Positions 66 through 30,671 of a stretch of 37,322 bases of DNA are shown here, one piece after another. Where the stretch lies: assembly GCA_017465865.1 (NCBI GenBank), contig JAFTVF010000005.1, positions 1 through 37,322 on the forward strand, in the 5' to 3' direction. The number at the start of each line of letters is the position of its first letter. Within the stretch, counting starts at the first letter, position 1. Origin of the DNA: Clostridia bacterium (GTDB lineage Bacteria; Bacillota; Clostridia; Christensenellales; Borkfalkiaceae). The translations under genes were made by a program, and so were the position numbers. The notes beneath the pieces were generated by a model. That model saw nothing but the letters and a program-made list of their open reading frames with translations. It did no database searches and was not told where the DNA came from.

Positions 66-310
66 GCCTCCCTTGCATAGGGAAGCTATAAAGTAAATTG
101 CAAGGCTTTGCCTTGCGTGAATTGAAAAACTTCGTTTTTCGTGAATTGTGCCTGTCGGCGCGTGAATTGCAACGCATAGCGTTGCGTTGTGGAATTATTC
201 AATAACGCGTTGCAAAGCAACGCAATTCACGACGGCGCAAGCCGTCATTTCACTGAGCGTCAGCGAAAATTCACGAATTGCAACAGCAATTCAATTCACT
301 GGCTTTGCCC
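66..310. repeat. Hairpin-cassette array A (3' of dnaJ)
   Basis: Intergenic array of short palindromes separated by GTGAATTG at 117-124, 141-148 and 162-169, and by CAATTCAC-type separators at 223-230, 247-253, 267-274 and 292-299. Left cassettes are AAGGC-ttt-GCCTT, AAAAAC-ttc-GTTTTT, GC-ctgtc-GGCGC and AACGC-atag-CGTT. Right cassettes are GTTGC-aaa-GCAAC, GACGGC-gcaa-GCCGTC, a GCG-tca-GCG unit and GAATTGC-aaca-GCAATTC. The core at about 185-212 is the short form without the 16-bp palindrome. The array stops against the dnaJ stop codon. A further hairpin, CTCCCTTGCATAGGGAAG, and a variant separator AGTAAATTG lie at 66-100. Bases 1-65 show no gene or clear motif. Confidence 0.85.
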
Positions 311-1481: not shown

Positions 1482-1679
1482 GTGAATTGCAACTTTACGG
1501 TTGCGTGAATTGAAAAACTTCGTTTTTCGTGAGTTGCGCCTGTCGGCGCGTGAATTGCAGCGCGTAGCGTTGCGTTGTGGAAATATTACAATAACGCATT
1601 TCGTAGAAATGCAATTCACGGGCGAAGCCCAATTCACTGAGCGTTAGCGAAATTTCACGCGCGTTCACGCACAATTCAC
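1482..1679. repeat. Hairpin-cassette array B (between dnaK and dnaJ)
   Basis: Same architecture as array A. Left cassettes: CAAC-tttacg-GTTG, AAAAAC-ttc-GTTTTT, GCGCC-tgtc-GGCGC and a GCGC-gta-GCGTT unit, separated by GTGAATTG or GTGAGTTG. Right cassettes: GCATTTC-gta-GAAATGC, GGGC-gaa-GCCC, GCG-tta-GCG and a GCGCG-ttca-CGC unit, separated by CAATTCAC-type octamers. The core is the short form: GGAAATATT is joined directly to ACAATAACGC at 1587/1588. This copy serves as the apparent 'empty' version of array D. It fills most of the dnaK-dnaJ gap, so a dnaK-dnaJ transcript would carry it. Confidence 0.85.
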
Positions 1680-1745: not shown

Positions 1746-3587
<1,842 letters not shown>

Positions 3588-5572: not shown

Positions 5573-5780
5573 GTGAATTGCAAGGCGTTGCCTTGCGTGA
5601 ATTGAAATAAATTTCGTGAATTGCGCCTATCGGCGCGTGAATTGCAACGCTATGCGTTGCGTTATTGTAAAATTTATACTGCAACGCGTTGCAGAGCAAC
5701 GCATTTCACGACGGCGCAAGCCGTCATTTCACGTTGTCGCAAGACAACATTTCACGAATTGCGACAGCAATTCATTTCAC
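5573..5780. repeat. Hairpin-cassette array C (between obgE and yhbY)
   Basis: Canonical array. Left cassettes: AAGGC-gtt-GCCTT, AAATAAATTT, GCGCC-tatc-GGCGC, AACGC-tat-GCGTT, with GTGAATTG separators. Right cassettes: GTTGC-aga-GCAAC, GACGGC-gcaa-GCCGTC, GTTGTC-gcaa-GACAAC, GAATTGC-gaca-GCAATTC, with CAATTCAC or ATTTCAC separators. The core (GTTATTGTAAAATTTATAC) is short and lacks the 16-bp palindrome. Two right-hand stems are capped by GCAA. The array ends four bases from the obgE stop codon. Confidence 0.85.
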
Positions 5781-5784
5781 TCTT

Positions 5785-7065
5785 TTAGGGTATAAAATCA
5801 AATTCCACTTCCCCGATCGAAACGGTGTCGCCCTCAACGCAGCCCATTTTCATCAGCTCCTTGATAACCCCCCGAAGCCGTAATACTTTCTGGAAATACA
5901 GCATCGAATCGGGATTGTTCAAAACGACGTTCCGACACAGCATATCGACCAGCCCGCCTACGACCACGTACACGCCGTCCTCGTCTTTGAAGATCTCGAA
6001 ATTCAGATCGTCGTTCGCCTTGTATTCGAATTCCTCCTCAATCGGCGTCGGCTCGACGGGCGGCAGCTCGGCGAGCTTGTCCAAAACCCCCTCGACGAGC
6101 TCTCTCGTGCCCTCGCCCGAAACCGCGGTGATGGGGAAGATTTTATATTTCCGACCGTATTTTTTCTTGAACGCTTTCAGGTTCTCTTCCGCGCCGTACA
6201 CGTCGCATTTGTTGCATACGACGATCTGCGGACGGGAGGCAAGCTCTTCGCTGAATTCTTTCAGCTCGTCGTTGATCTTTTTGAAATCCTCGATCGGGTC
6301 GCGCCCCTCGCAGCCCGAAATATCAATGACATGGCAGAGCATACGCGTACGCTCGATATGCCGCAGGAAATCGTGCCCAAGCCCCGCGCCCTGCGCCGCG
6401 CCCTCGATCAGCCCCGGGATATCCGCCGCGACAAACGATTTTTCGTAATACCGCACCACGCCGAGGTTGGGCGAAAGGGTGGTGAAATGGTAGTTTGCGA
6501 TCTTCGGTCTTGCCGCGGAGATCTTGGAAAGCAGAGTGCTTTTGCCGACGTTCGGGAACCCGACGAAGCCCACGTCCGCGATGACTTTCATTTCGAGGAT
6601 CACGGAATGGGGTTTTACTTTCTCGCCTTTCTGCGCGAAGTTGGGCGCGTGTCTGCGCGCCGTGGTAAAGCGCACGTTGCCCTTACCGCCGTTACCGCCG
6701 CGCGCTACCAGCACTTCCTGTCCGTCCTCGAACACGTCGCAGATCAGTCTGCCCGTTTCCTCGTCGCGCACGAGCGTACCCAAAGGCACTTTGATATAAA
6801 CGCTTTTTCCGCTTCTGCCAAAGCATTTGTTCGTACCGCCCATTTCGCCGTTTTCCGCGAAGTATTTGGAAGTGAAACGGAACGGGAACAGGTCGTTCAT
6901 GTCCTTGTCGCCGACGAAATACACGTCGCCGCCCTTGCCGCCGTCCCCGCCGTCAGGTCCGCACGCGGGCTTGCCCTTGAACGCCTTGAACGAGTTCATA
7001 CCGTCCCCGCCGTCGCCCGCTTTTATCTGGATTTTTACTTTATCGGTAAATTCGCTGATCGCCAT
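5785..7065 (-). CDS. obgE: GTPase ObgE/CgtA
   Basis: Essential GTPase of late 50S ribosome assembly and stress signalling. The 427-residue product has the glycine-rich Obg fold (about residues 1-160, with GDGGDGMNSFKA and GGNGGKGNVRF), the G domain with GFPNVGKST, DIPGLIEGA and NKCD, and a C-terminal OCT domain ending in GEVEFDFIP. I chose the ATG at 7065 (MAISEFTDKVKI) with AAGGA upstream; the longer frame to 7149 adds a low-complexity basic stretch that overlaps the predicted promoter. In many Firmicutes obgE is near rpmA and spo0B; neither is seen here. Confidence 0.97.
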   Translation of the reverse strand: MAISEFTDKVKIQIKAGDGGDGMNSFKAFKGKPACGPDGGDGGKGGDVYFVGDKDMNDLFPFRFTSKYFAENGEMGGTNKCFGRSGKSVYIKVPLGTLVRDEETGRLICDVFEDGQEVLVARGGNGGKGNVRFTTARRHAPNFAQKGEKVKPHSVILEMKVIADVGFVGFPNVGKSTLLSKISAARPKIANYHFTTLSPNLGVVRYYEKSFVAADIPGLIEGAAQGAGLGHDFLRHIERTRMLCHVIDISGCEGRDPIEDFKKINDELKEFSEELASRPQIVVCNKCDVYGAEENLKAFKKKYGRKYKIFPITAVSGEGTRELVEGVLDKLAELPPVEPTPIEEEFEYKANDDLNFEIFKDEDGVYVVVGGLVDMLCRNVVLNNPDSMLYFQKVLRLRGVIKELMKMGCVEGDTVSIGEVEFDFIP

Positions 7066-7096
7066 ACTTTTGTCCTTGTTTTTCTTTTTCCTCAAC

Positions 7097-7308: not shown

Positions 7309-8133
7309 ATGGAAGTAAAAAAATTGTCGAAAACAACGTTTGCGCGTTGGATATTCTTTTGCCTTTGTCAGGCGTTTTGTCTGTCCACCGCGATCTATTT
7401 CGGTATCACCAAAAACAGCGGCAAGGCGTTTATGGGCGGTATTTCCATACTTTACGTATGTATTCCGATGCTCGTGGAAAAACTGTTTAAGTTCCGTCTG
7501 CAACTTTCGCTGTATTTCGTTACGGTATTCTACGCCGTCTGCCCGTTGCTCGGCTATGCGTATAATATGTACTACACCGTTTCGTGGTGGGACGATATCA
7601 TGCACGCGTTCTCGGGCGTTATCTTCGCTATGTTCGGCGCTTATCTTCCCAAGGTTATCAATAAAAACGGCAAAAATAGCCTCGCTATGTGCGCGCTGTT
7701 CGGGTTGATTTTCTCTATGGCGATCGCGATGGCTTGGGAATTCGTCGAATTTTCCTTAGACAGCTTTTTCGGAACGGATATGCAGAAAGATACGCTGATT
7801 TATAATATCCGCTCCTATCTCCTCGGCGAATGGACGGATCTGCCCGTGAGCGAAATGGCGGAATGGAACGTAAACCAAGTAATCGTCAACGGCACGGAAT
7901 TGCCCGGGTATCTGGATATAGGACTTATCGACAGCATGAAAGATATGATCGTGGAAACGGTCGGCGCGGTGGTGTATACCGTGATCTATATCGCGGGCAA
8001 GGGCAAGCATTTCGTGTTCGAAACCCTCGAAGAAGAACGCGCAAGATTAGAGCTTTCCGCCAAACAGGCGCAGGAAGAGGAAACCGAGCCGCAAAAAGAA
8101 GCGGCGGTTGCTTCCGACGAAAAAACGGAATAA
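7309..8133 (+). CDS. DUF2238/YjdF-like integral membrane protein
   Basis: Membrane protein of 274 residues and unknown function. About five hydrophobic segments are visible at roughly residues 12-32, 40-55, 63-83, 98-113 and 125-145, with another near 220-235. Polar residues inside the membrane part match the YjdF/DUF2238 pattern: WWDDIMHAFSG, WEFVEFSLDSFFG and GLIDSMKDMIVETVGA. A stretch of about 45 residues between FFGTDMQKD and GLIDSMKDM is longer than I expect for the family. The C-terminus (about 240-274) is a charged Glu/Lys/Gln tail, probably cytoplasmic. It has its own promoter and terminator, so it is monocistronic. The family match is from pattern recall. Confidence 0.65.
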   Translation: MEVKKLSKTTFARWIFFCLCQAFCLSTAIYFGITKNSGKAFMGGISILYVCIPMLVEKLFKFRLQLSLYFVTVFYAVCPLLGYAYNMYYTVSWWDDIMHAFSGVIFAMFGAYLPKVINKNGKNSLAMCALFGLIFSMAIAMAWEFVEFSLDSFFGTDMQKDTLIYNIRSYLLGEWTDLPVSEMAEWNVNQVIVNGTELPGYLDIGLIDSMKDMIVETVGAVVYTVIYIAGKGKHFVFETLEEERARLELSAKQAQEEETEPQKEAAVASDEKTE

Positions 8134-8199: not shown

Positions 8200-8438
8200 G
8201 TGAATTGCAAGGCTATGCCTTGCGTGAATTGAAATAAATTTCGTGAATTGCGCCTGTCGGCGCGTGAATTGCAACGCACGGCGTTGCGTTAAGGAAATAT
8301 TATAACACTTTCATAGGTTTTACAAGTATACTTGTATAAATCATACAATAACGCATTTCGTAGAAATGCAATTCACGGGCGCAAGCCCAATTCACTGAGC
8401 GTTAGCGAAAATTCACGATAGCGTAGCTATCAATTCAC
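8200..8438. repeat. Hairpin-cassette array D (long core, between convergent genes)
   Basis: The clearest full copy. Left: AAGGC-tat-GCCTT, AAATAAATTT, GCGCC-tgtc-GGCGC, AACGC-acg-GCGTT, with GTGAATTG separators. Core 8291-8354 carries 43 bases (8302-8344) that are absent from array B at the matching junction, including the palindrome at 8321-8336. Right: GCATTTC-gta-GAAATGC, GGGC-gcaa-GCCC, GCG-tta-GCG, GATAGC-gta-GCTATC, with CAATTCAC separators. The last separator supplies the TGA stop codon of ddl. The 8134-8434 gap holds only the terminator and this array. Confidence 0.9.
8321..8336 (+). repeat. 16-bp core palindrome, copy 1
   Basis: Perfect palindrome TACAAGTATACTTGTA in the centre of array D. 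It is flanked as TTT on the left and TAAA on the right, creating TATAAA at 8335-8340, the same asymmetric flank seen in the other two copies. Confidence 0.9.
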
Positions 8439-9547
8439 TTATTTCTCAACCGCACGGAATTTAATATCCCCGTCGTCAGTAGTTTTTTCTCCTGCTCTTT
8501 CTGTACGCGGATCGCGTCTTCCAAAAGATCGGAAAAGAAATTTTTCGCGTCCGACACCCGTTCGCAGAAAAGATAATACGCGAGCGAGCCGGGCACGGTG
8601 TTTACTTCGCAAAGATACACCTGTTTCCCGCTGACGAGGAAATCCATACGCACCGCGCCGCAAAGGTTCATGCGCTTATACACCGTTTTGGTATACGCGC
8701 GGATCTTTTCCCGCAATTCCCCCTCGATCCGTCCGCCGTTCCCTTGTTTTCCCCCGTCGGAAGTGCGTTTTACGTACTTATCCTCAAAGGAATAAATGCC
8801 CGTGCCGAACGCTTCCTCGGGCTCGGAAACGAAGATCTCCCCGCCGAGGGTATACGCCGCGCAGTTGATATCCCGTTTTTCCGCGAGGTATTTTTCCACG
8901 ATCACCCGCGTATCCAGCTCGAACGCCGCCTCGATCGCCCGCCTTGCTTCTTCTTCGTTTTTCGCAAGTGAAATGCCGATAGACGAACCCAAATGCGCGG
9001 GCTTTATCACCACGGGGTATTTGAGCTTGCTCTCGATACTCCGCATCAAAAACGCGCCCCGCTTTTCATAGTCCTTTTCATTCGCGCGGATATACTCGAC
9101 GGTGGGGATACCCAGCCCCCGCAACACGACTTTCGTCAGGCTCTTATCCATAAACACTCCCGAGGCGGTGAGATCGGGCGAGGCGAGCGGAATACCGTTT
9201 AACGCCATGAGCGCGGACACGCCGCCGCCCTCGCCAAGCCCGCCGTGGCAACAATTCAGCGCGCAATCGATAACGCACAGGCGTTTGAGCTTGCGTTTTT
9301 TTTCGCCGAACGCGTACAGCGCGCCGCCCTCGAAAAACACCCGATCAAAGGAAGAAAAACGCCTTTCGCGGAAGACGGAAAGGTCGGTCATTTTCGGCGA
9401 GGTATACATTCCGCCGTCGGTATGTAGATAAATAGGCACAGGGTCGAATTTCTCCCTGTCGATGAGATTGAGCACGAACACGCCCGTAAGCACGGATATT
9501 TCGTTTTCGCAGGACTTGCCTCCGAACAGCACCGCCACTTTCCGCAT
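8435..9547 (-). CDS. ddl: D-alanine--D-alanine ligase
   Basis: ATP-grasp ligase that makes the D-Ala-D-Ala dipeptide for peptidoglycan. The 370-residue product has the N-terminal LFGGKSCENEISVLTG motif (Glu that binds the first D-Ala), the ATP-grasp segment KPAHLGSSIGISLA, EKYLAEKRDINCA, and the metal/substrate motif EVNTVPGSLAYY. I use the ATG at 9547 with GGAGGTG upstream; the longer frame to 9610 would add a basic leader across a hairpin. Last gene of the tsaE-murF operon and directly follows the Mur ligase that uses its product. The stop codon lies in repeat array D. D-Ala-D-Lac activity cannot be excluded from the motifs alone. Confidence 0.93.
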   Translation of the reverse strand: MRKVAVLFGGKSCENEISVLTGVFVLNLIDREKFDPVPIYLHTDGGMYTSPKMTDLSVFRERRFSSFDRVFFEGGALYAFGEKKRKLKRLCVIDCALNCCHGGLGEGGGVSALMALNGIPLASPDLTASGVFMDKSLTKVVLRGLGIPTVEYIRANEKDYEKRGAFLMRSIESKLKYPVVIKPAHLGSSIGISLAKNEEEARRAIEAAFELDTRVIVEKYLAEKRDINCAAYTLGGEIFVSEPEEAFGTGIYSFEDKYVKRTSDGGKQGNGGRIEGELREKIRAYTKTVYKRMNLCGAVRMDFLVSGKQVYLCEVNTVPGSLAYYLFCERVSDAKNFFSDLLEDAIRVQKEQEKKLLTTGILNSVRLRNK

Positions 9548-14128: not shown

Positions 14129-14177
14129 ATGATCGCGCCGAATATCCAAACGCTCTGCTTTCTGCAAAACGCCGATA

Positions 14178-14293
14178 CTCTTTTTCCATCCGGACTATAC
14201 CGTCGGTATCGGAATTTCACCGATTCGGGAGCGCGATACGCGCTCTTCGCAGACTTTACTGCCGGTGAGGAATTTCACCTCGCCCCAAAGAAT
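14178..14293 (-). promoter_or_regulatory. FMN riboswitch (RFN element)
   Basis: The minus strand carries the conserved RFN blocks in order: CTTTGGGGCGAGGTGAAATT (14271-14290), CCGGCAGTAAAGTC near 14245-14262, GGTGAAATTCCGATACCGAC, and GGTATAGTCCGGATGG followed by AAAAAGAG. The element senses flavin mononucleotide; with the terminator at 14096-14128 it should switch off ribU when FMN is plentiful. It begins nine bases after the histidine kinase stop codon, leaving no room for a separate promoter except inside that gene. Confidence 0.96.
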
Positions 14294-14302
14294 ATATTCT
14301 AT

Positions 14303-22412: not shown

Positions 22413-23309
22413 TTACAGGATCGCTTCTACGAAGCTCTTGCTGTCGAAAAATTCAAGGTCTTCCATTTTCTCGCCAACGCCTGCAAACACCACGGGCAGG
22501 GTCAATTCCTGCGCGAGCGAGAACACGAACCCGCCCTTTGCCGTGCCGTCGAGCTTGGTAAGCACGATCCCGTCGAGTTCTACCGCTTCGTCGAATACAC
22601 GGGCTTGATTTACGGCGTTCTGTCCCGTCGTCGCGTCGAGCACGAGCAGTTTCAAAAAATCCGCTTCGGGGTACTCGCGCGTAACCACGCGGTCCATTTT
22701 CCGAAGCTCGTTCATGAGGTTATCCTTGACGTGCAATCTGCCCGCCGTATCCACGATCACGACGTCCGTGCCCTTTGCCTTTGCCGAGGACACCGCGTCG
22801 AAGATGACCGCCGACGGATCGCTGCCCTCCTCGTGCTTGACGATACGCACTTTCGCGCGCTCCGCCCAGATCGACAGCTGTTCGCTCGCCGCCGCGCGGA
22901 AAGTATCCGCCGCCGCGACGGTAACCGTCTTGCCCTGCGCGAGGAAATAGTGCGCGAGCTTGCCCACCGTCGTCGTTTTTCCCACGCCGTTCACGCCTAC
23001 GAGCATAATAACGCAGGGATACTGCGGAGGCTCAACCTCGCTTTCCTCCAAAATATCGGTGAGAATACCCCGAAGCAGTTCGGTTACGTACGCCTCATCC
23101 TTGAGTTTTTCGGAAATCGCCAGCTTTTTCACACGCCCTACGACCTCTTGCGCCGTCGTATACGATACGTCGGAGGCGATTAAAATTTCTTCTAATTCGT
23201 CATAAAACTCGTTGCCGAGCTTGTTTTTGGAAAAGAGCACGCGGAGTTTTTCCGAAAGGTTGTCTTTCGTCTTTTTCAACGCGCCGAAAAGTTTTCCGAA
23301 TATGCCCAT
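22413..23309 (-). CDS. ftsY: Signal recognition particle receptor FtsY
   Basis: SRP receptor GTPase that docks ribosomes to the membrane. The 298-residue product has an N domain (about 25-90), then the G domain with GVNGVGKTTTVGKLA, DTFRAAASEQL, VDTAGR and TKLDGTAKGG. The acidic A domain of enterobacterial FtsY is missing, as usual in Gram-positives. Separated from smc by hairpin array E, then closely followed by trmD (ten bases). Confidence 0.97.
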   Translation of the reverse strand: MGIFGKLFGALKKTKDNLSEKLRVLFSKNKLGNEFYDELEEILIASDVSYTTAQEVVGRVKKLAISEKLKDEAYVTELLRGILTDILEESEVEPPQYPCVIMLVGVNGVGKTTTVGKLAHYFLAQGKTVTVAAADTFRAAASEQLSIWAERAKVRIVKHEEGSDPSAVIFDAVSSAKAKGTDVVIVDTAGRLHVKDNLMNELRKMDRVVTREYPEADFLKLLVLDATTGQNAVNQARVFDEAVELDGIVLTKLDGTAKGGFVFSLAQELTLPVVFAGVGEKMEDLEFFDSKSFVEAIL

Positions 23310-23472
23310 ATTTTCTCCTTTTTCCGCCCTACGGGCGCGATATAAAGGCTTACGCCAGTGAAATGATTAAAGCCAGTGAATTGCGCGTAAACGCGCGTGA
23401 ATTTTCGTTAACGCTCAGTGAATTGGGCTTGCGCCCGTGAATTGCGTTTCTACGAAACGCGTTATGGCAAAA

Positions 23473-23501
23473 ATTATACAAGTATACTTGTAAACCCGCA
23501 A
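23473..23501 (-). promoter_or_regulatory. Promoter-like element inside array E core
   Basis: Minus-strand TTGCGG (23496-23501), 17-base spacer, TATAAT (23473-23478), facing ftsY. The 16-bp palindrome at 23477-23492 fills most of the spacer and touches the -10, where an operator would sit. Confidence 0.45.
23477..23492 (-). repeat. 16-bp core palindrome, copy 2
   Basis: TACAAGTATACTTGTA in array E; on the minus strand the flanks (TTT before, TAAT after) match copy 1. Confidence 0.9.
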
Positions 23502-23639
23502 AGGCGTTAGAATATTCCCTCAACGCAACCATAGGTTGCAATTCACGCGCCAAAGGCGCAATTCACGAAATTTATTTCAGTTCACGCAAGGCTTTGCCTT
23601 GCAATTCACTCTATTCCTCGGTTTGCCAAAGGCAAAGCC

Positions 23640-26600
23640 TTATTCTACCGTACCTGCGCCCAAACGGCTCTCTACTTCCGCAAGCTTGACGGATACGATC
23701 TTGGACACGCCTTTTTCCTGCATCGTTACGCCGAACAGGGTATCCGCTTGGTTCATCGTCGGTTTTCTGTGCGTGATAACGATAAACTGCGTATCCTCGG
23801 CAAACCGTTTCAAATAGGAAGCAAATCTGTCCACGTTCGCGTCGTCGAGCGCCGCTTCGATTTCGTCGAGAATACAGAACGGCATCGGACAGGATTTCAA
23901 AATCGCGAACAGGATCGCGATCGCCGTCAACGCTCGTTCACCGCCCGAAAGCAGGGAGATCTTCGTCAGCTTCTTGCCCGGAGGACAAGCGACGATCTCC
24001 ACGCCCGCGGCAAGCGGGTCTTCCACGCCCTCGTAATCGATCTGCAATTCCGCTCTGCCGCCGCCGAACAGCTCCTTAAACGTAACCTTGAAATTCTCGT
24101 TGATCTGTTCAAAGCCCGCGTCGAAGATACGCAGCATTTCCCCGCGGATCTCGTCGAGCGCCGCTTGCAAGTCGGCAAGCGCTTTTTGCAGGTCCTCGCG
24201 CTGGGTCAGCATTTCGTCGCAGTGCGCGCGTTCTTCCTCGTATTCCTCTACGGCGTTGGGGTTGACCGCGCCGAGCATGGTGATCTTGCGCTTTAACACC
24301 GTAATCGTGTTCGCGCCCTCTTCCACGTCGAAATTCTCCTTGCGGTAGGCAAGACAGCCCTCGTAATCCATTCCGTACGCCTCGTCCACGCGAAGGCGCA
24401 TGTTTTCGAGGTTGGTGTCGATCTTACTGATCTCGATCTCGCATTTATAACGCTTGTCCGAGCTTTTCGTCAGCGTTTCCTGCAAGCCCGTCTTTTCCTC
24501 TTCCAAAGCCAGCTGCGCGGCGTTGATCTCTTCCTTTTCCTTGGAGAGCTTCGCGATCTCGTCCACGATCGCTTGCACCGCCGCTTTTTCCTCGTCGGTA
24601 AGCTCCTTTTCCTGCGCCTCCGCTTCCAAGCCGTTGAGCCTCGTCTGCGTTTCCGTCAATTCGTATTCGGTGTCGAGGATACGCTTTACAAGCTCTTCCT
24701 TTTCCGCGCTCAAACGCTCGATATTCTCTTTCTGCTTTTTCAGTTCCGCAGTCAGCGAGGCGTATTCCACTTCCAAAGCCCGAAGTTGCGCGCTCTTTTC
24801 CGCGCGTTCTTCCTTAAAGCTGTCGCATTGACGACGCTGGGTTTCCATTTCCGCTTCCGCGCTCTTTCTCCGCGCGGCAAGCTGTTCTTCGCTCATCGAC
24901 GAATTCGCTTCTTCCGACTGCAATTCCTGCAATCTCGCCTCAAAATCGTTCTTCGCGTCCGCATAGGTTGCGATATCGTTTTCCGCTTCTTCGAGCTGCT
25001 GCAAAAGCGCGGTTTCGCGTTGCATCAGCCCCGCGATCTCGCTGTTTGCGCCCTGGTATCTTTCGCGGAGCGCGTCTACCGCCTCTTCCGCCGCCTTTCT
25101 CGCGCGTTCGCTCTCCGCGATCGCCGTTTTCAGCTTTTCGATATATTTCTGCTTGCGCGCGATATTCTCTTTACATTCCTGTATCTTACGCTCGTGCGAA
25201 AGCAGCGAAGCCGTGTCCTTTCTGCGGCTGCCGCCCGTCATCGCGCCGCTCGTCGAAACGGTGTCGCCGTCGAGGGTTACGATCTTGAACAGGTTGCCGT
25301 ATTTTTTCGCGATCGCCGTCGCGTTGGCGATATTGTCGCAAACGAGGGTGTTGCCCAAGAGGTTGGAAATGACGTTGTAATAATATTCGTCGTATTTGAC
25401 AAGCTCGGTCGCCAAGCCCATTGCCCCGCGTTCGTCTAACGCTCTTCTGATCTCGCGGGAGTCGGGACGGGGGCGCATGCTCGCTACGGGCAGGAAGGTA
25501 ACCACGCCGCCGTTGGTGCGTTTCAGATATTCGATAAGGTATCTCGCGTCGTCCGCCGTGGGCGTAACGACGTTTTGCATCGCGCCGCCAAACGCCGTTT
25601 CGATCGCCGCTTCATAGCGTTGGTCGGTGGAAACGATGTCCGCAAGCGCGCCTTTTAAGTGCTTGGAAAGCTCGGGGTTGGTCTTGGAAACGGACAGCAA
25701 ACGGCGTACCGATTCCTTATAGCCCTCGAAACGGTTCTTCAAGCTGATATACATTTCCAAGTTCTCGCGCAAGGACGCGATCTGACCGTTAGCGTTGAAC
25801 AGCTCCTGATTGAAATCGTTGACGGTGAGCTGCATCTCCCGCGCTTCTTCCTGTTTTTCCTCGAAATCGCGCATACCCGTCGAGGTAAGGTCTTTCAAGC
25901 TCTTGATATCCTTACGCACGGAAGCAAGCTCGTCTAAAAGCCGTTCCTTTCTTTCTTCCGCCTTTTTGAGCGCGGAAACAAGCTCGTTTAACCTGTCTTT
26001 CGTCGCTTCCATACGCGCGGCGAGCGTACCGAGGCTCTTTTTGAGCTCGGACAGATCGTCCGCGGAGGAGAGCTGGGAAAGTCGGTTTTCGTCCGAGAAT
26101 TTCTCGAAAACTTCTATCTTTTTATCGAGCGCGCGGACTGCCGCGGAAAGGACTTCCGTCTGCGTTTCTATTTCCGCAACGCGTTTTCCGCCGTCCGCGT
26201 TCTTTTTCTCCGTGATCGCGATCTCGTCCCCGATTTCGCCGATACGGATCTTGCCCTGTGCAAGCGCTTCCGTCGCCGCCTCGATCTGCGAGCGGTAGGT
26301 ATTGATACGCTCGCGTACGAGTTTTAACTCGCCGTCCTTTCTTTCGTTGCCGACGGAAAGCTCCACGCGGCGGTCGTTCAGCTCGGTGAGCTGCGCGTCC
26401 GCACGGTTGATCTTACCGCGGTTGTCGTCCAAGCGGCGGTTGATCAGCTCGATCTGCGTATTCAGGGAAATGATCTTTTCGGAAATGACCGCAATGTCCT
26501 TCTTGAATTTGCTCTTTTCCTGTTCGGCGTTCTCGTAGCGGTATATGTAGGTATTCGCTTCGGCGATCTTCAACGCGTCCGAATATTCCGCGTATTCCCG

Positions 26601-27239
26601 CGCCTTTTCCGCTTCCCCTTTCATACGGCTAAGATGCCGTTCGGATTCGTCGATACGCTGGCTGTAAATAAACAGGTTAGAGTTGGAATCCGCGATCTTG
26701 CGTTCAACGTCCTCTTTGCGGTCTTTGAAATTCATAAGCCCGAGCGCTTCTTCGAAAATAAGTCTTCTCTTTTCGGGCGGAGCGTTCATGATCTGCTCGA
26801 CCTTGCCTTGCCCGATGATCGAATACCCCTCTTTTCCAAGCCCGATGGTATGGAACAGCGCGACGAGATCCCTTTGACGGCTCGCCTGACCGTTGATAAG
26901 GTATTTACTCTCCCCTTTGCGGTCGAGTCGGCGGGTCATCGACACTTCCGAATCCGCGATATCGGGGAAAATATGATTTTCGTTGTCGAAAACGAGGGTT
27001 ACTTCGCAGAACGTCTGCGGATTTCGCTCCTGCGTGCCCCCGAAAATGACGTCCTGCATATTCGTTCCGCGGAGCGCCTTTGCCGATTTTTCACCGAGCA
27101 CCCAACGCACCGCGTCCGCAACGTTACTCTTACCGCAGCCGTTCGGACCGACGATACAGGTAACGCCCTCTTCAAAGCGAATTTTCGTTTTGTCGGCAAA
27201 CGACTTAAAGCCGACGAGTTGTATTTCTTTCAGATCCAA
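23640..27239 (-). CDS. smc: Chromosome segregation protein SMC
   Basis: Structural maintenance of chromosomes ATPase, 1199 residues, normal length. N-terminal Walker A GPNGCGKSNVADAVRWVLGE, first long coiled coil, hinge at about 520-670 (with GALADIVSTDQRYEAAIE), second coiled coil, and the C-terminal head with the signature LLSGGERALTAIAILFAI, Walker B CILDEIEAALDD and the D-loop. The start codon is TTG at 27239 (MDLKEIQLVGFKSFADKT), with AAAGGAG six bases upstream; no ATG is available. It follows rnc by 45 bases, a common pairing (rnc-smc-ftsY). Confidence 0.98.
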   Translation of the reverse strand: MDLKEIQLVGFKSFADKTKIRFEEGVTCIVGPNGCGKSNVADAVRWVLGEKSAKALRGTNMQDVIFGGTQERNPQTFCEVTLVFDNENHIFPDIADSEVSMTRRLDRKGESKYLINGQASRQRDLVALFHTIGLGKEGYSIIGQGKVEQIMNAPPEKRRLIFEEALGLMNFKDRKEDVERKIADSNSNLFIYSQRIDESERHLSRMKGEAEKAREYAEYSDALKIAEANTYIYRYENAEQEKSKFKKDIAVISEKIISLNTQIELINRRLDDNRGKINRADAQLTELNDRRVELSVGNERKDGELKLVRERINTYRSQIEAATEALAQGKIRIGEIGDEIAITEKKNADGGKRVAEIETQTEVLSAAVRALDKKIEVFEKFSDENRLSQLSSADDLSELKKSLGTLAARMEATKDRLNELVSALKKAEERKERLLDELASVRKDIKSLKDLTSTGMRDFEEKQEEAREMQLTVNDFNQELFNANGQIASLRENLEMYISLKNRFEGYKESVRRLLSVSKTNPELSKHLKGALADIVSTDQRYEAAIETAFGGAMQNVVTPTADDARYLIEYLKRTNGGVVTFLPVASMRPRPDSREIRRALDERGAMGLATELVKYDEYYYNVISNLLGNTLVCDNIANATAIAKKYGNLFKIVTLDGDTVSTSGAMTGGSRRKDTASLLSHERKIQECKENIARKQKYIEKLKTAIAESERARKAAEEAVDALRERYQGANSEIAGLMQRETALLQQLEEAENDIATYADAKNDFEARLQELQSEEANSSMSEEQLAARRKSAEAEMETQRRQCDSFKEERAEKSAQLRALEVEYASLTAELKKQKENIERLSAEKEELVKRILDTEYELTETQTRLNGLEAEAQEKELTDEEKAAVQAIVDEIAKLSKEKEEINAAQLALEEEKTGLQETLTKSSDKRYKCEIEISKIDTNLENMRLRVDEAYGMDYEGCLAYRKENFDVEEGANTITVLKRKITMLGAVNPNAVEEYEEERAHCDEMLTQREDLQKALADLQAALDEIRGEMLRIFDAGFEQINENFKVTFKELFGGGRAELQIDYEGVEDPLAAGVEIVACPPGKKLTKISLLSGGERALTAIAILFAILKSCPMPFCILDEIEAALDDANVDRFASYLKRFAEDTQFIVITHRKPTMNQADTLFGVTMQEKGVSKIVSVKLAEVESRLGAGTVE

Positions 27240-27284: not shown

Positions 27285-27944
27285 TTAGTTCTTATGCGAC
27301 AGCTCCCAAAGCAGCCGCGCCGCCGCCGTTTGTTCGGCTTCCTTTTTGCTCCTGCCCTCGCCCCTTGCCTCCGCGCCGAGCGCGGAAACCGTGCAATGAA
27401 ATAAGGGCGCGTTGTCCTTGCCCGTCTTTTCCGAACGGTACTTTGGTGGGGTTTCCCCCATGCCCTGCAAAAATTCCTGCAAAGCGCCCTTGGGGTTGTC
27501 CAGCTCTTTTTTTAAAGTCAAATTCCCGTGTGCGAGAATAAATTTCTGCGCCTTAGCGTACCCGCCGTCGAGATAGATCGCGCCGACGATCGTTTCGAAC
27601 AGGCTGGAAGTCGTCTTTTGCCCGATATTTGCCTTACTCCCCGAAACGAGCAGGTATTTCCGTACGTCCAACGCGTCCACCGCCGAATCAAGCGCGCTTT
27701 GACAAACGAGCTTTTGCCGCTCGCGCGTGAGCACGCCCTCGCTCGCCTGCGTGTCGCGCGCGTATTGCCACTCGGTAACTACGAGCTGCAACACCGCGTC
27801 GCCGAGGTATTCCATACGCTCGTTGTCCTTGCCCCCGTGCGCGTTGGCGTAAGTGGAATGGGTGAACGCTTCTTTGAGCAGAGATTTATCTCGGAAAATA
27901 TATCCGATCTTTTTTTCTATATCCGTATAGGGAAAGCCGTTCAT
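27285..27944 (-). CDS. rnc: Ribonuclease III
   Basis: Double-strand-specific RNase for rRNA and mRNA processing. The 219-residue product has the signature NERMEYLGDAVLQL, the second catalytic acidic site in LFETIVGAIYLDGG, and a C-terminal dsRBD (about 150-219) with GEGRSKKEAEQTAAARLL. The ATG overlaps the plsX stop as ATGA. The acpP gene often found between plsX and rnc is absent. Confidence 0.97.
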   Translation of the reverse strand: MNGFPYTDIEKKIGYIFRDKSLLKEAFTHSTYANAHGGKDNERMEYLGDAVLQLVVTEWQYARDTQASEGVLTRERQKLVCQSALDSAVDALDVRKYLLVSGSKANIGQKTTSSLFETIVGAIYLDGGYAKAQKFILAHGNLTLKKELDNPKGALQEFLQGMGETPPKYRSEKTGKDNAPLFHCTVSALGAEARGEGRSKKEAEQTAAARLLWELSHKN

Positions 27945-28984
27945 TCCGCTTTTTCCGTGGTTTCGGGCGCGACGGGGTTCAAATCCACGCTGTCGATCAT
28001 ACCCTTGATCTTGCCGACGAGTTCCCCCCGAACGGCGTTTGCCGCCTGCTCGATACAGACGGAGAACGCGTACGCCTTAGAGTTTCCGTGCCCTTTCACT
28101 ACGGGCTTATTCAAACCCAAAAACATAGCCCCGCCGCAGGTTTCGTAATCGAGGCTGGTGCGGATACCGCCGATGATGTCCTTGCACAATAACGCGCGGA
28201 GCTTCGACCAAAGATTGCGCTTGAATTGCTTTTTCAGGGTCGTGCTCACCAGCTTACCGCAGCCCTCTACCGCTTTCATCGCGATATTGCCCGTAAACCC
28301 GTCGGACACCATAACGTCGATATCGCCGAACATCAGATCCCGTCCCTCGACGTTGCCTACGTAGTTGATGCAATCCATATTTTTAAGCAAGCCGTTTGCT
28401 TCCTGTTGCAATATGAGCCCCTTGTGTTCTTCCGTTCCGTTGTTGAGCAAGCCGACCTTGGGGTCTTTGATCCCGTATACCGACTGCGCGTACGCCGTCG
28501 CCATGATCGCGAAATGCGCGAGGTTGATGGGCTTACATTCGAGGTTCGCGCCGCAGTCGCAAAGGAACGTGCCCGTGCCTTTGTGGTTGGGAATGATCGG
28601 ACAGAGCGCAGGTCTTGACACCCCTTTGAGCCGTCCGAGAATAAGTACGCCTGCGGTGAGCACCGCGCCCGTCGAGCCCGAGGACACAAGCCCGTCCGCT
28701 TTGCCCTCTTTGAGCAAACGGAACGCCACGACGGTAGACGAGTCTTTTTTCGTCTTTACCGCTTTCGTCGGGATCTCCTCCATACCGATCACTTCGGTCG
28801 TGTGGACGATCTCCAAGCGTTTTTCGTCGTATTTGCAAGCGGAAAGCTCCGCCTTGATCTGCGTTTCGTCGCCGCAGAGAATAAGATACAAATCCTTGTC
28901 TTTATTCAATGCTTCCACGCAACCGAGCACCTGCTGTTTGGGTGCGAAATCTCCGCCCATGGCGTCGATGATGATTTTCGTCAT
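27941..28984 (-). CDS. plsX: Phosphate acyltransferase PlsX
   Basis: Converts acyl-ACP to acyl-phosphate for phosphatidic acid synthesis at the membrane. The 347-residue product starts IIIDAMGGDFAPKQQVLG and contains VVAFRLLKEGKADGLVSSGSTGA and VMVSDGFTGNIAMKAVEG, typical of the family. I chose the ATG at 28984, preceded by AAAGGAG; the frame to 29119 runs into hairpin array F and is not credible. Coupled to rnc by ATGA overlap. Confidence 0.96.
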   Translation of the reverse strand: MTKIIIDAMGGDFAPKQQVLGCVEALNKDKDLYLILCGDETQIKAELSACKYDEKRLEIVHTTEVIGMEEIPTKAVKTKKDSSTVVAFRLLKEGKADGLVSSGSTGAVLTAGVLILGRLKGVSRPALCPIIPNHKGTGTFLCDCGANLECKPINLAHFAIMATAYAQSVYGIKDPKVGLLNNGTEEHKGLILQQEANGLLKNMDCINYVGNVEGRDLMFGDIDVMVSDGFTGNIAMKAVEGCGKLVSTTLKKQFKRNLWSKLRALLCKDIIGGIRTSLDYETCGGAMFLGLNKPVVKGHGNSKAYAFSVCIEQAANAVRGELVGKIKGMIDSVDLNPVAPETTEKAE

Positions 28985-29008
28985 GTCGATTTTTCTCCTT
29001 TTATTCAA

Positions 29009-29277
29009 GTGAATTGAATTGCTATGCCTAGCGACGCGATATTCCCTATCAGGCGCGATATTTGCCTTGTGGCAAGCGATATGCCCTATCGAGCGCGATA
29101 TGTTTTGTCTTGCAACCAAGCCAAAACGTAGCGGTGAAATTTATACAAGTATACTTGTAAATAACAGCCACAACGCTTAGCAAAGCTAAGCATATCGCAC
29201 GAGCGTTAGCGAGTATATCGCATTTTAATATATCGCACGTTAGTATCTCGCGTTTGCCGTAGGCAAACACATTTCAC
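29009..29277. repeat. Hairpin array F (GCGATAT-separator variant)
   Basis: Variant array in which most separators are GCGATAT on the left and ATATCGC on the right in place of GTGAATTG and CAATTCAC. One GTGAATTG remains at the left end (29009-29016) and an ATTTCACC at the right end. Cassettes include TTGCC-ttgt-GGCAA, CCTAT-type units, CTTAGC-aaa-GCTAAG, GCG-tta-GCG and GTTTGCC-gta-GGCAAAC. The core has the same 16-bp palindrome. It fills the gap between asnS and plsX. Confidence 0.8.
29144..29159 (-). repeat. 16-bp core palindrome, copy 3
   Basis: TACAAGTATACTTGTA in array F. On the minus strand it is followed by TAAAT, giving TATAAA as in copy 1, although the surrounding cassettes belong to a different separator family. 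Confidence 0.9.
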
Positions 29278-29279
29278 CC

Positions 29280-30671
29280 TTAATACTTGAGGTCGCCGAA
29301 CGTACGGGGGTACGGAAGTACGTCGCGGATATTCGCGATACCCGTCAGGTACATGACCATTCTTTCAAATCCAAGCCCGAACCCGCTGTGCGTCGTGCCG
29401 CCGTATCTGCGCAGATCGAGATACCACGAATAGTCCTCGGGGTTCATTCCCAGCTCCTTGATACGGTTTACGAGCTTCTCGTAATCGTCCTCTCTTTGCG
29501 AACCGCCGATCAGCTCCCCGATCCCGGGCACGAGCAGGTCTGCCGCCGCCACCGTCTTTCCGTCGGGGTTTTGTTTCATATAAAACGCCTTGATCTCTTT
29601 CGGGTAATCGGTGAGGAATACGGGTTTCTTGTATACCTGTTCGGTAAGGAAACGCTCGTGTTCGCTTTGCAGGTCCTTGCCCCAGAAGATATTTTTATCG
29701 TCGAATTTATCCGCGTTCTGTTTCAAAATTTCAATCGCTTCGGTATAGCTCAACCGCACGAACGCGTTCTCGGACACGTTTTTCAGGCGTTCGAGAAGTC
29801 CTTTGTCCACGAACTGGTTGAGGAAATTCAATTCGTCCGCGCAAGTTTCGGATACGTAATCGATGATATATTTCACCATCGCTTCCGCGATATCCATATC
29901 CCCCGCAAGATCGCAGAACGCCATTTCGGGTTCGATCATCCAGAACTCCGCCGCGTGTCTTGCGGTATTCGAGTGCTCCGCGCGGAATGTCGGTCCGAAC
30001 GTATACACGTTGCCGAACGCCATCGCGTACGTTTCCGCATTCAACTGTCCCGACACGGTAAGCGCCGCGCGTTTGCCGAAGAAATCCTCTTTATAATCCA
30101 CTTTTTTGCCTTTCGCCACCTCGTCGAGATCGAGGGTGGTTACCTGGAACATTGCGCCCGCGCCCTCGCAGTCGCTGCCCGTGATGATGGGCGTGTGTAC
30201 GTACACGAAACCGCGGTCGTTGAAGAATTTATGGATCGCGATCGCCGCTTCGCTGCGGATACGGAACGCCGCGCCGAACAGGTTGGTTCTGGGGCGCAGG
30301 TATGCGATCTCGCGCAAAAATTCCACCGAGTGGCGTTTTTTCTGTAAGGGGTATTCGGGCGCGGATTTGCCCTCTACCGTTATTTTTTCCGCTTTGATCT
30401 CGTAGGGTTGTTTGTTTTCGGGCGTTACGACCACTTTGCCCGTAACGACGAGCGCACAGCCTACGTTTTCTTTCGCGATCTCGTCGTAGTTTTCCAAATT
30501 TTCACGCTCGAAAACGATCTGCGTATTCTTAAAACAGCTACCGTCGTTAAGCTCGATAAACCCGAACGCTTTCGAATCGCGTATCGTTCTCGCCCAGCCC
30601 GCTACGGTAACCGTCTTTCCGTCGTATGCTAAATAGTTTTCGCCCAGAGTTTTGAGGGGTGTTCTTTCCAT
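29280..30671 (-). CDS. asnS: Asparaginyl-tRNA synthetase
   Basis: Class IIb aminoacyl-tRNA synthetase charging tRNA-Asn. The 463-residue product has an N-terminal OB-fold anticodon-binding domain ([20 protein letters not shown]), motif 2 [20 protein letters not shown] and MIEPEMAF, and motif 3 [15 protein letters not shown]. The AEF and GLGFER residues fit AsnRS. I use the ATG at 30671; a TTG seven codons upstream is possible. It is preceded by a promoter that overlaps the vanW stop. No T-box leader is visible. Confidence 0.96.

Follow-up and report, generated by a model that had tools for sequence, protein, structure and literature searches.

What is the array of short hairpins that lies between two converging genes at positions 8200-8438? 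It belongs to a stretch of 37,322 nucleotides (the window) from the genome of a Clostridia bacterium of the family Borkfalkiaceae, called G000 below. The original prediction described it as one of five copies (66-310, 1482-1679, 5573-5780, 8200-8438 and 23358-23609) of an undescribed family of hairpin cassettes with mirrored separators, and considered a structured 3' RNA, a mobile element moved in trans and a cassette-exchanging repeat as possible readings. All five copies were found at or very near these positions and share one plan (family A); the window also holds one sister copy (family B), which was absent from that list. A full element has four heptamer separators and four hairpins, an AT-rich centre, which is GTTRTGG...CCRYAAC in most copies, and then the mirror image with the heptamer inverted. 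Half-elements with a single arm are also present. The features of the window are as follows.

93-299 (+): full element, family A, with 4 + 4 separators, the outermost left one being GTAAATT
1482-1679 (+): full element, family A, between dnaK (1746-3548, -) and dnaJ (311-1462, -)
5573-5780 (+): full element, family A, with GTGAATT four times in the left arm and ATTTCAC four times in the right arm, adjoining the stop of obgE (5785-7095, -)
8200-8438 (+): full element, family A, the copy under study, at a convergent site between a gene at 7309-8133 (+) and ddl (8435-9547, -)
8200-8287 (+): X arm of this copy, with GTGAATT separators at 8200, 8224, 8243 and 8264
8207-8223, 8231-8242, 8250-8263, 8271-8287: hairpin cassettes of the X arm
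8288-8352 (+): AT-rich centre of this copy, with the palindrome TACAAGTATACTTGTA at 8321-8336
8353-8438 (-): Y arm of this copy, with AATTCAC separators at 8370, 8389, 8410 and 8432, the last of which contains the called TGA stop of ddl
8353-8369, 8377-8388, 8396-8409 (minihairpin GC-GTTA-GC), 8417-8431: cassettes of the Y arm
23337 and 23358: stray separator-like words near the next element
23376-23609 (-): full element, family A, inverted, between ftsY (22413-23309, -) and smc (23640-27239, -)
29009-29277 (+): full element, family B, with GCGATAT/ATATCGC inside outer GTGAATT/ATTTCAC, between plsX (27941-29008, -) and a class II (D/K/N) aminoacyl-tRNA synthetase gene (29280-30671, -)

Some details of the original prediction were revised. 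The element predicted at 66-310 is there, but its limits are 93-299 and its outer separator is GTAAATT; that predicted at 23358-23609 is also there, but it is inverted relative to the others and begins at 23376. The cassette order, described as fixed, holds for the most part, although some copies have X-arm positions 2 and 3 exchanged. Most cassettes are palindromes, as described, but TGAGCGTTAGCGAA contains no long palindrome and forms only a 2-bp hairpin, GC-GTTA-GC. The perfect 16-bp palindrome TACAAGTATACTTGTA occupies the centres of three window elements from both families (8321-8336, 23477-23492 and 29144-29159) and is found at nine places in the genome. An FMN riboswitch (110.6 bits) lies at 14174-14296 on the minus strand of the window.

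The arrays are real. GTGAATTG occurs 29 times in the window, where 0.94 occurrences are expected, and this count was equalled in none of 100 shuffles. The window and twenty 20-kb stretches of G000 that were picked for holding matches (437 kb in total) were scanned by a separator-agnostic procedure, which gave 328 links between a word and a hairpin, both strands and overlapping words being counted, compared with 6 after local shuffling. Three separators are clearly recurrent in this DNA, namely GTGAATT, GTGAAAT and GCGATAT. The scan yielded 40 separator clusters, of which four are stray separator words and 36 are elements, partial ones included. The arrays are not CRISPRs, in agreement with the original prediction: what stands between the separators are palindromes drawn from a small set of stems, and identical direct repeats with unrelated unique spacers were not seen.

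Each of the 23 family A copies in which both arms were scored has one X arm and one Y arm, the types being assigned by our own content rule with Y as the default class. In 38 of 50 arms of G000 all separators are alike, compared with a mean of 10 and a maximum of 18 arms after shuffling, and the separators of the X and Y arms are independent of each other (p 0.37). Complementarity of the two separator sets, as originally described, is not seen in every copy, as the 5573-5780 copy and the independent variation of the arms indicate. For the further proposal that the arms pair into one long stem, no covariation was seen: in 32 elements from seven genomes, the two arms of one element agree at 26.66 of 28 positions and arms swapped between elements at 26.65. 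RNAfold gave low folding energies (mean z -6.7, 21 elements) and paired 74% of separator positions across the arms, but this pairing results from the complementarity of the separator words, and arm-to-arm pairing as a selected feature is not supported. Cassette exchange is borne out in part: the arms combine independently of each other, and within one arm type the same cassette classes turn up at several positions. One arm in the genome G204 (L454:4253-4465, G204:C40) has ten separators and has grown by tandem repeats of a two-cassette unit, so that arrays can expand.

The stem classes differ strongly between copies, and script counts were therefore used in place of a covariance model. As palindromic we counted 215 of 263 cassettes, which contain 1180 Watson-Crick pairs, 6 G-T pairs, 6 A-C pairs and 23 other mismatches; 20 of the 48 cassettes omitted from these pair counts are of the TTCGC...GCTCA type. 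Loops of 3-4 nt that start with G and end with A were found in 98 of 169 cases on the AATTCAC strand and in 5 of 169 on the opposite strand, and the form c(G..A)g in 87 of 169 cassettes compared with 50 of 2186 control hairpin readings (both strands of the same DNA). The bias has the same direction in all eight genomes tallied, the distinct stem-loop pairs numbering 24 versus 0 in G000, 20 versus 3 in G204, 13 versus 1 in G152, 7 versus 2 in G095, 6 versus 0 in G197, 5 versus 0 in G157, 3 versus 0 in G126 and 2 versus 0 in G032. Among the tetraloops 31 are GNYA and 21 GNRA; in RNA tetraloops, GNYA is not as frequent as GNRA. According to the available text of a study of DNA aptamers (PMC4686876), a GNA or GNNA loop on at least two G-C pairs makes an exceptionally stable DNA minihairpin. 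The odd cassette TGAGCGTTAGCGAA conforms to this rule, as GC-GTTA-GC. To our knowledge, work on such minihairpins has been confined to in vitro systems. Between copies, 6.9% of comparisons differ at inner stem positions and 25.9% at loop positions; this contrast somewhat favours the stems, since cassettes were sorted into classes by their four outermost bases on either side. As far as sequences can tell, the stem and loop signature would favour DNA minihairpins rather than RNA.

The position of the elements among genes was examined for 54 elements from stretches of four genomes, for 50 of which our own simple codon-usage caller gave both neighbours. The sites comprise 37 tandem, 12 convergent and 1 divergent, whereas divergent regions account for 19% of the bases between genes (p 0.0005). 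At the tandem sites the element lies a median of 20 bp from the upstream stop and 38 bp from the downstream start. A stop-side distance of -4 was found in 6 of 61 cases, including ddl at 8435, which means that the called TGA stop lies inside GTGAATT. The X/Y orientation is unbiased with respect to transcription (9 versus 8 in 17 tandem cases). All array sites that were read are intergenic, beside protein-coding or tRNA/tmRNA genes, and not in a 23S rRNA gene.

The sites are not inherited between species. In 97 orthologous adjacent gene pairs of G000 and its congener G095, elements occupy 10 in G000 only, 4 in G095 only and 1, ftsY-smc, in both, with 0.6 joint occupancies expected (11 x 5/97). 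The dnaK-dnaJ copy likewise has no counterpart: no separator array was found at 29 dnaJ loci in other genomes (L357 gave an unrelated word), and the upstream flank is present at 28 of them, the L379 contig beginning inside dnaJ. Some sites that are occupied by arrays in G000 are filled in G095 and G152 by other repeat-like stretches with phrases such as cttgctcgtatctccgccgttta, which are also seen in further intergenic regions of these genomes (e.g. L465:9515-9760). An exact target duplication of 4-9 bp was found at none of 37 full elements, and the base immediately outside the element is A at 43 of 74 ends.

A three-separator GTGAAWT pattern occurs in 22 of the 57 genomes of the genus, with 1 to 110 matches each, and 35 genomes are without it; across the family, with control reads in two genomes, it occurs in 22 of 201. 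In another genus of the family (G032), L471:3219-3518 and L472 from 17882 on show a similar plan with the separators ATGATTT/AAATCAT and ATAAATT/AATTTAT. Nearly alike compact GTGAAAT elements lie in three genera (L043, L044 and L049, of G045, G078 and G172), which may reflect transfer or contamination of metagenome-assembled genomes (MAGs); those of L043 and L044 adjoin tRNA genes. A scan of named genomes gave, among the matches listed, at least 119 stretches, mostly chance matches. The arrays kept by script include L082, L094, L095, L113, L130, L139 and L140, all from Clostridia or Clostridiales MAGs, with three from deer or goat gut, and four further rows were kept; L111 and L117 are weak and are not arrays of this type. 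Among viral contigs, GTGAATT-type arrays were found by script or eye neither in the 80 loci listed from at least 120 loose-scan stretches nor in any of the 10 strict-scan stretches, and five weak loose-scan rows are plain repeats.

In G204, the two arms of an element enclose an intact ORF of 117 aa (L454:4497-4850, minus strand), which matches PF05635 (23S_rRNA_IVP, E 9e-27) and TIGR02436 (8.2e-31); this protein is called IVP below. A genus-wide search gave 28 matches to IVP in 21 of 57 genomes (20 above the cut-off). The flanks of 27 IVP loci were read by eye, with the following results.

IVP gene between GTGAATT arms: L476 (decayed), L478, L479, L480, L486
IVP gene between arms with other separators: L485 (ATGAATT), L490 and L496 (GTGAAGT)
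IVP gene directly behind a mirrored GCGATAT/ACGATAT array: L493, L499, L501
IVP gene directly behind a mirrored GTTATAT array: L474, L475
IVP gene directly behind a mirrored ATGAAAT array: L482-L484
IVP gene directly behind another mirrored array: L498 and, weaker, L489 (GTTATGA), L477 (ATGATAA), L500 (ATGATAT)
Decayed ATGAATT-like arrays: L481
No array seen by eye: L487, L488, L491, L497 (one clade)
Ambiguous by eye: L492; flank too short to judge: L495

In the loci of the adjacent type that were read, the array lies on the 5' side of the IVP gene. A program test for a mirrored array within 450 bp upstream and 300 bp downstream of the gene was positive at 16 of 26 IVP loci in its relaxed form and at 13 of 26 in its strict form, leaving 10 of 26 that failed the relaxed test; these counts omit L494 (IVP below the cut-off and without a tblastn match) and L495. 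Among control genes in array-rich stretches the corresponding numbers are 56 and 37 of 716, and none of 26 dnaJ loci was positive (relaxed test, IVP loci versus other genes, p 3e-11). An earlier and narrower test for arms on both sides gave 7 of 27 IVP loci and 4 of 721 other genes. A tRNA or tmRNA gene lies within about 1.5 kb of 10 of 30 IVP loci and of 0 of 26 dnaJ loci; five of the ten have a clear array (L477, L482, L484, L500 and L509), and the other half have no clear array or are not judgeable.

The association is less evident at the level of genomes. No IVP hit was obtained in G000, G095, G152, G197, G126, G228 or G216, all with at least 10 array matches, and MAG incompleteness and past loss may be the cause. 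An IVP of the GTGAATT/ATGAATT group is present in 4 of 22 carriers (G204, G157, G220 and G226) and in 3 of 35 non-carriers (G187, G080 and G224, of which G080 and G224 use ATGAATT, outside the carrier pattern GTGAAWT), so genome-level co-occurrence is weak. In the first stretches (2 to 20 kb) of 17 non-carriers no recurrent separator was found, and some of these genomes have arrays beside IVP. One IVP element lies at the same place in G187, G220, G204, G157 and G226, between genes that we take by eye, from L454 ORFs and the flanking DNA of the others, to encode an FTHFS-type ligase and an enzyme of glutaminyl-tRNA-synthetase type. This site was located in other genomes by tblastn with these two L454 proteins: G095 has there a short, relic-like stretch ending in AATTCAC and G152 a half array of GCGATAT type, and neither relic nor array was found in G126. 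Of the readings offered originally, the mobile element moved in trans is the one that survives, as orthologous sites differ in occupancy and congeners have gene-bearing copies; we infer from this that the arrays move or have moved.

We know of no enzymatic motif in IVP, and searches of PADLOC and PHROGs placed none of three IVPs in a family. Among solved structures, the relatives of the IVP profile (2rld and 2gsc) have five chains each, and the available text of PMC4990558 describes S23p as a homopentamer of four-helix bundles with no known function and mentions a proposed role of its ORF in mobility. The intervening sequences of 23S rRNA treated there resemble the congener elements, though not the window copies, in that an S23p/IVP ORF lies within an element with complementary ends; they differ in their location in 23S rRNA and in having one long terminal stem, whereas many intergenic copies, hairpin arrays and a clade-specific heptamer are seen here. 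PF05635 is also described, in the available text of PMC10053308, as resembling Avd, the accessory protein of diversity-generating retroelements (DGRs). In contrast to DGRs, PF00078 (RVT_1) gave no hit in 10 of 11 carriers searched; a link to reverse transcriptase was rejected, since RVT_1 hit one of these 11 carriers and also one of 10 non-carriers searched.

The heptamer follows the IVP clade. On a tree of 27 IVPs, the eight separator labels on 21 rows require 7 changes, which is the minimum; shuffled labels require 13.3 on average, and none of 200 shuffles was as low as 7. The labels were set by eye after likely clades had already been noticed, six IVPs are unlabelled, GTGAATT was merged with ATGAATT and GCGATAT with ACGATAT, and close relatives cluster anyway. 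The GTGAATT/ATGAATT group has a support of 73/83 and is set apart by a branch of its own in 70% of bootstrap trees. GCGATAT, the separator of the family B element in the window, is the heptamer of one IVP clade. Two records filed as human-faecal phage also carry IVPs, and both pass the relaxed program test and fail the strict one: the IVP of L509, with a GTGATAT array upstream, comes closest to the GTTATAT clade (74.6%), and that of L510, which has a GTGAAAT/ATGAAAT array, comes closest to the ATGAAAT clade (71%). Viral contigs gave no IVP match with one protein as query and three loci with an alignment: L511 has two GTGAAAT arrays upstream of IVP, no array was found at L512, and none was clear at L513 (81 residues matched). 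Among 25 plasmid records with an IVP match, the seven examined (four cyanobacterial and one each from Bernardetia, Treponema and Monoglobus) showed no array at the IVP gene. Generally, an IVP gene with a clade-matching mirrored array is found at most congener IVP loci and in two outside records, and no IVP was found in the genome of the window.

The family had been called undescribed, which holds in part: one arm is already catalogued as the Gut-1 RNA of Rfam (RF01706). Gut-1 matches single arms above the gathering score, including the right arm of the 5573-5780 copy (5782-5698, 51.6 bits), and two more arms of the window fall below threshold. Matches above threshold were obtained in three of 13 array sources (L043, L044 and L140) and at 5 of 18 IVP loci scanned (L482, L484, L509, L510 and L511), where the array lies just upstream of IVP. 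L044 is not an IVP locus; there, a single element has Gut-1 matches in its two arms, one on each strand. As described by Weinberg in 2010 (PMC2864571, available text), Gut-1 consists of three hairpins with GUGAAAU spacers and thus equals one arm of the element; it is filed there as a non-coding RNA, from the human gut only, and the same text describes no mirrored arm, dispersal or IVP gene. No mention of Gut-1 was found in the main text of PMC8040213. Among the matches listed from the open-licence PMC literature, the Gut-1 paper alone concerns the arrays, and we found neither the full mirrored element, its dispersal and the DNA minihairpin signature nor a link between IVP and dispersed repeats.

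The analysis shows the arrays themselves, their sites that differ between species, loops and stems typical of DNA minihairpins, a link with IVP genes and a heptamer that changes with the IVP clade (labels by eye). We lean towards the view that there are several families of hairpin arrays, each tied to its own IVP clade, and that IVP recognises its cognate array and drives, or drove, its spread. The window copies would be short gene-less members of such families; in a complete member, the IVP gene is enclosed by, or lies directly behind, a mirrored array of heptamer-minihairpin units, usually four in each arm. IVP would bind the cognate heptamer next to extruded or single-stranded hairpins, a ring of IVP reading the heptamers between hairpins being the simplest model, and would act in trans on copies without a gene, which it would place or copy mostly shortly after stop codons and with no target duplication. 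As IVP is not known to have an enzymatic motif, a host nuclease, polymerase or recombinase presumably supplies the chemistry. That IVP moves the arrays is suggested by its place in the gene-bearing element, the clade-specific heptamers and the dispersal without target duplication. By analogy, the overall logic would be closest to that of REP sequences and RAYT, with another protein and another repeat. Rich carriers without an IVP hit, the weak genome-level co-occurrence and the 5' position of adjacent arrays are strong counterpoints, and the last also fits autoregulation through an operator or 5'-UTR.

The same 5' position belongs to an explanation in which IVP binds nucleic acids as a regulator or architectural protein, with the array at its own gene serving as operator or mRNA leader and the dispersed arrays being a regulon or chromosome-organising sites that arose by ordinary duplication. 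A heptamer that tracks the IVP clade and stems that are kept while loops vary (6.9% versus 25.9% differences) also speak for it. However, the dispersed copies shun divergent, that is promoter, regions, with 1 of 50 sites there, they lie mostly behind stop codons at species-specific sites, and carrier genomes may be without IVP, and we regard such a regulatory role as unlikely. A structured RNA of the Gut-1 type, in which transcribed arrays would, for instance, stabilise mRNAs at their 3' end or serve as protein sponges, is in our opinion very unlikely. Gut-1 does match single arms above threshold, the folding energy is low, and most copies would be transcribed, given their tandem and convergent sites, but G-U pairs are almost absent and equal to A-C (6 and 6), GNYA tetraloops (31) stand beside GNRA ones (21), orientation shows no preference (9 versus 8), and the Gut-1 matches on the L044 element lie on opposite strands. 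The structured 3' RNA of the original prediction is weakened by the same scarcity of G-U pairs, mixture of loops and lack of orientation bias.

Classical non-autonomous repeats, either MITEs or REPs moved by a RAYT or IS200-type transposase with IVP as a mere passenger, could also account for the inverted-repeat plan and the intergenic dispersal, and we consider them distinctly unlikely. Like REP/BIME, as described in the available text of PMC3733652, the elements are built of short palindromes, lie scattered over the genome, carry an unpaired tag on one side, often come in oppositely oriented pairs and have a similar location bias (mostly between tandem or convergent genes, 3' of coding regions); as with RAYT, a related protein gene is flanked by the repeats. 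However, the tags here are GTGAAWT, GCGATAT and others, the hairpins differ and form 4 + 4 arrays, and the partner is a four-helix-bundle protein, whereas REP tags are GTAG or CGTC beside a palindrome of 20-40 bp; CGTC REPs also lack RAYT according to the same text. G000 does have one IS200-type Y1 transposase gene (L040; G000:C6:127814-128170, minus strand), but there is no array at its ends, PF01797 gave no hit in the carriers G095, G157, G228, G220 and G216, and Y1 hits do not follow carrier status, so that the linked transposase suggested for checking was not found in Y1/IS200 form and this candidate was rejected. The original statement that the arrays are not simple REP sequences is upheld by the recurrent tags GTGAATT, GTGAAAT and GCGATAT and by the lack of a Y1 hit in several carriers. 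A search with the Y2_Tnp profile matched nothing in carriers and is uninformative because the controls were silent too. RVT_1 in 1 of 11 carriers likewise speaks against repeats of this classical kind. The mirrored arms recall the terminal inverted repeats of a MITE of a DDE transposon, but an exact target duplication of 4-9 bp is seen at 0 of 37 elements.

The explanation that we lean towards, with IVP recognising and spreading its cognate arrays, would tie S23p/IVP, which has no known function according to the available text of PMC4990558, to a specific DNA architecture. It is possible, though we offer this part more tentatively, that the arrays are a new class of selfish repeat, in which a ring-forming IVP without a catalytic domain reads the heptamer and propagates the arrays as single-stranded or cruciform DNA. 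If so, the orphan IVP family would gain a function, and since the recognition word changes with the protein clade, this function is directly testable by binding to matched and mismatched arrays. A catalogued RNA family would be reinterpreted as well, the Gut-1 "RNA" becoming the DNA site of IVP, and the minihairpins would point to a natural use of GNA/GNNA loops. The intervening sequences of 23S rRNA might then be seen as one specialised branch of the same elements.
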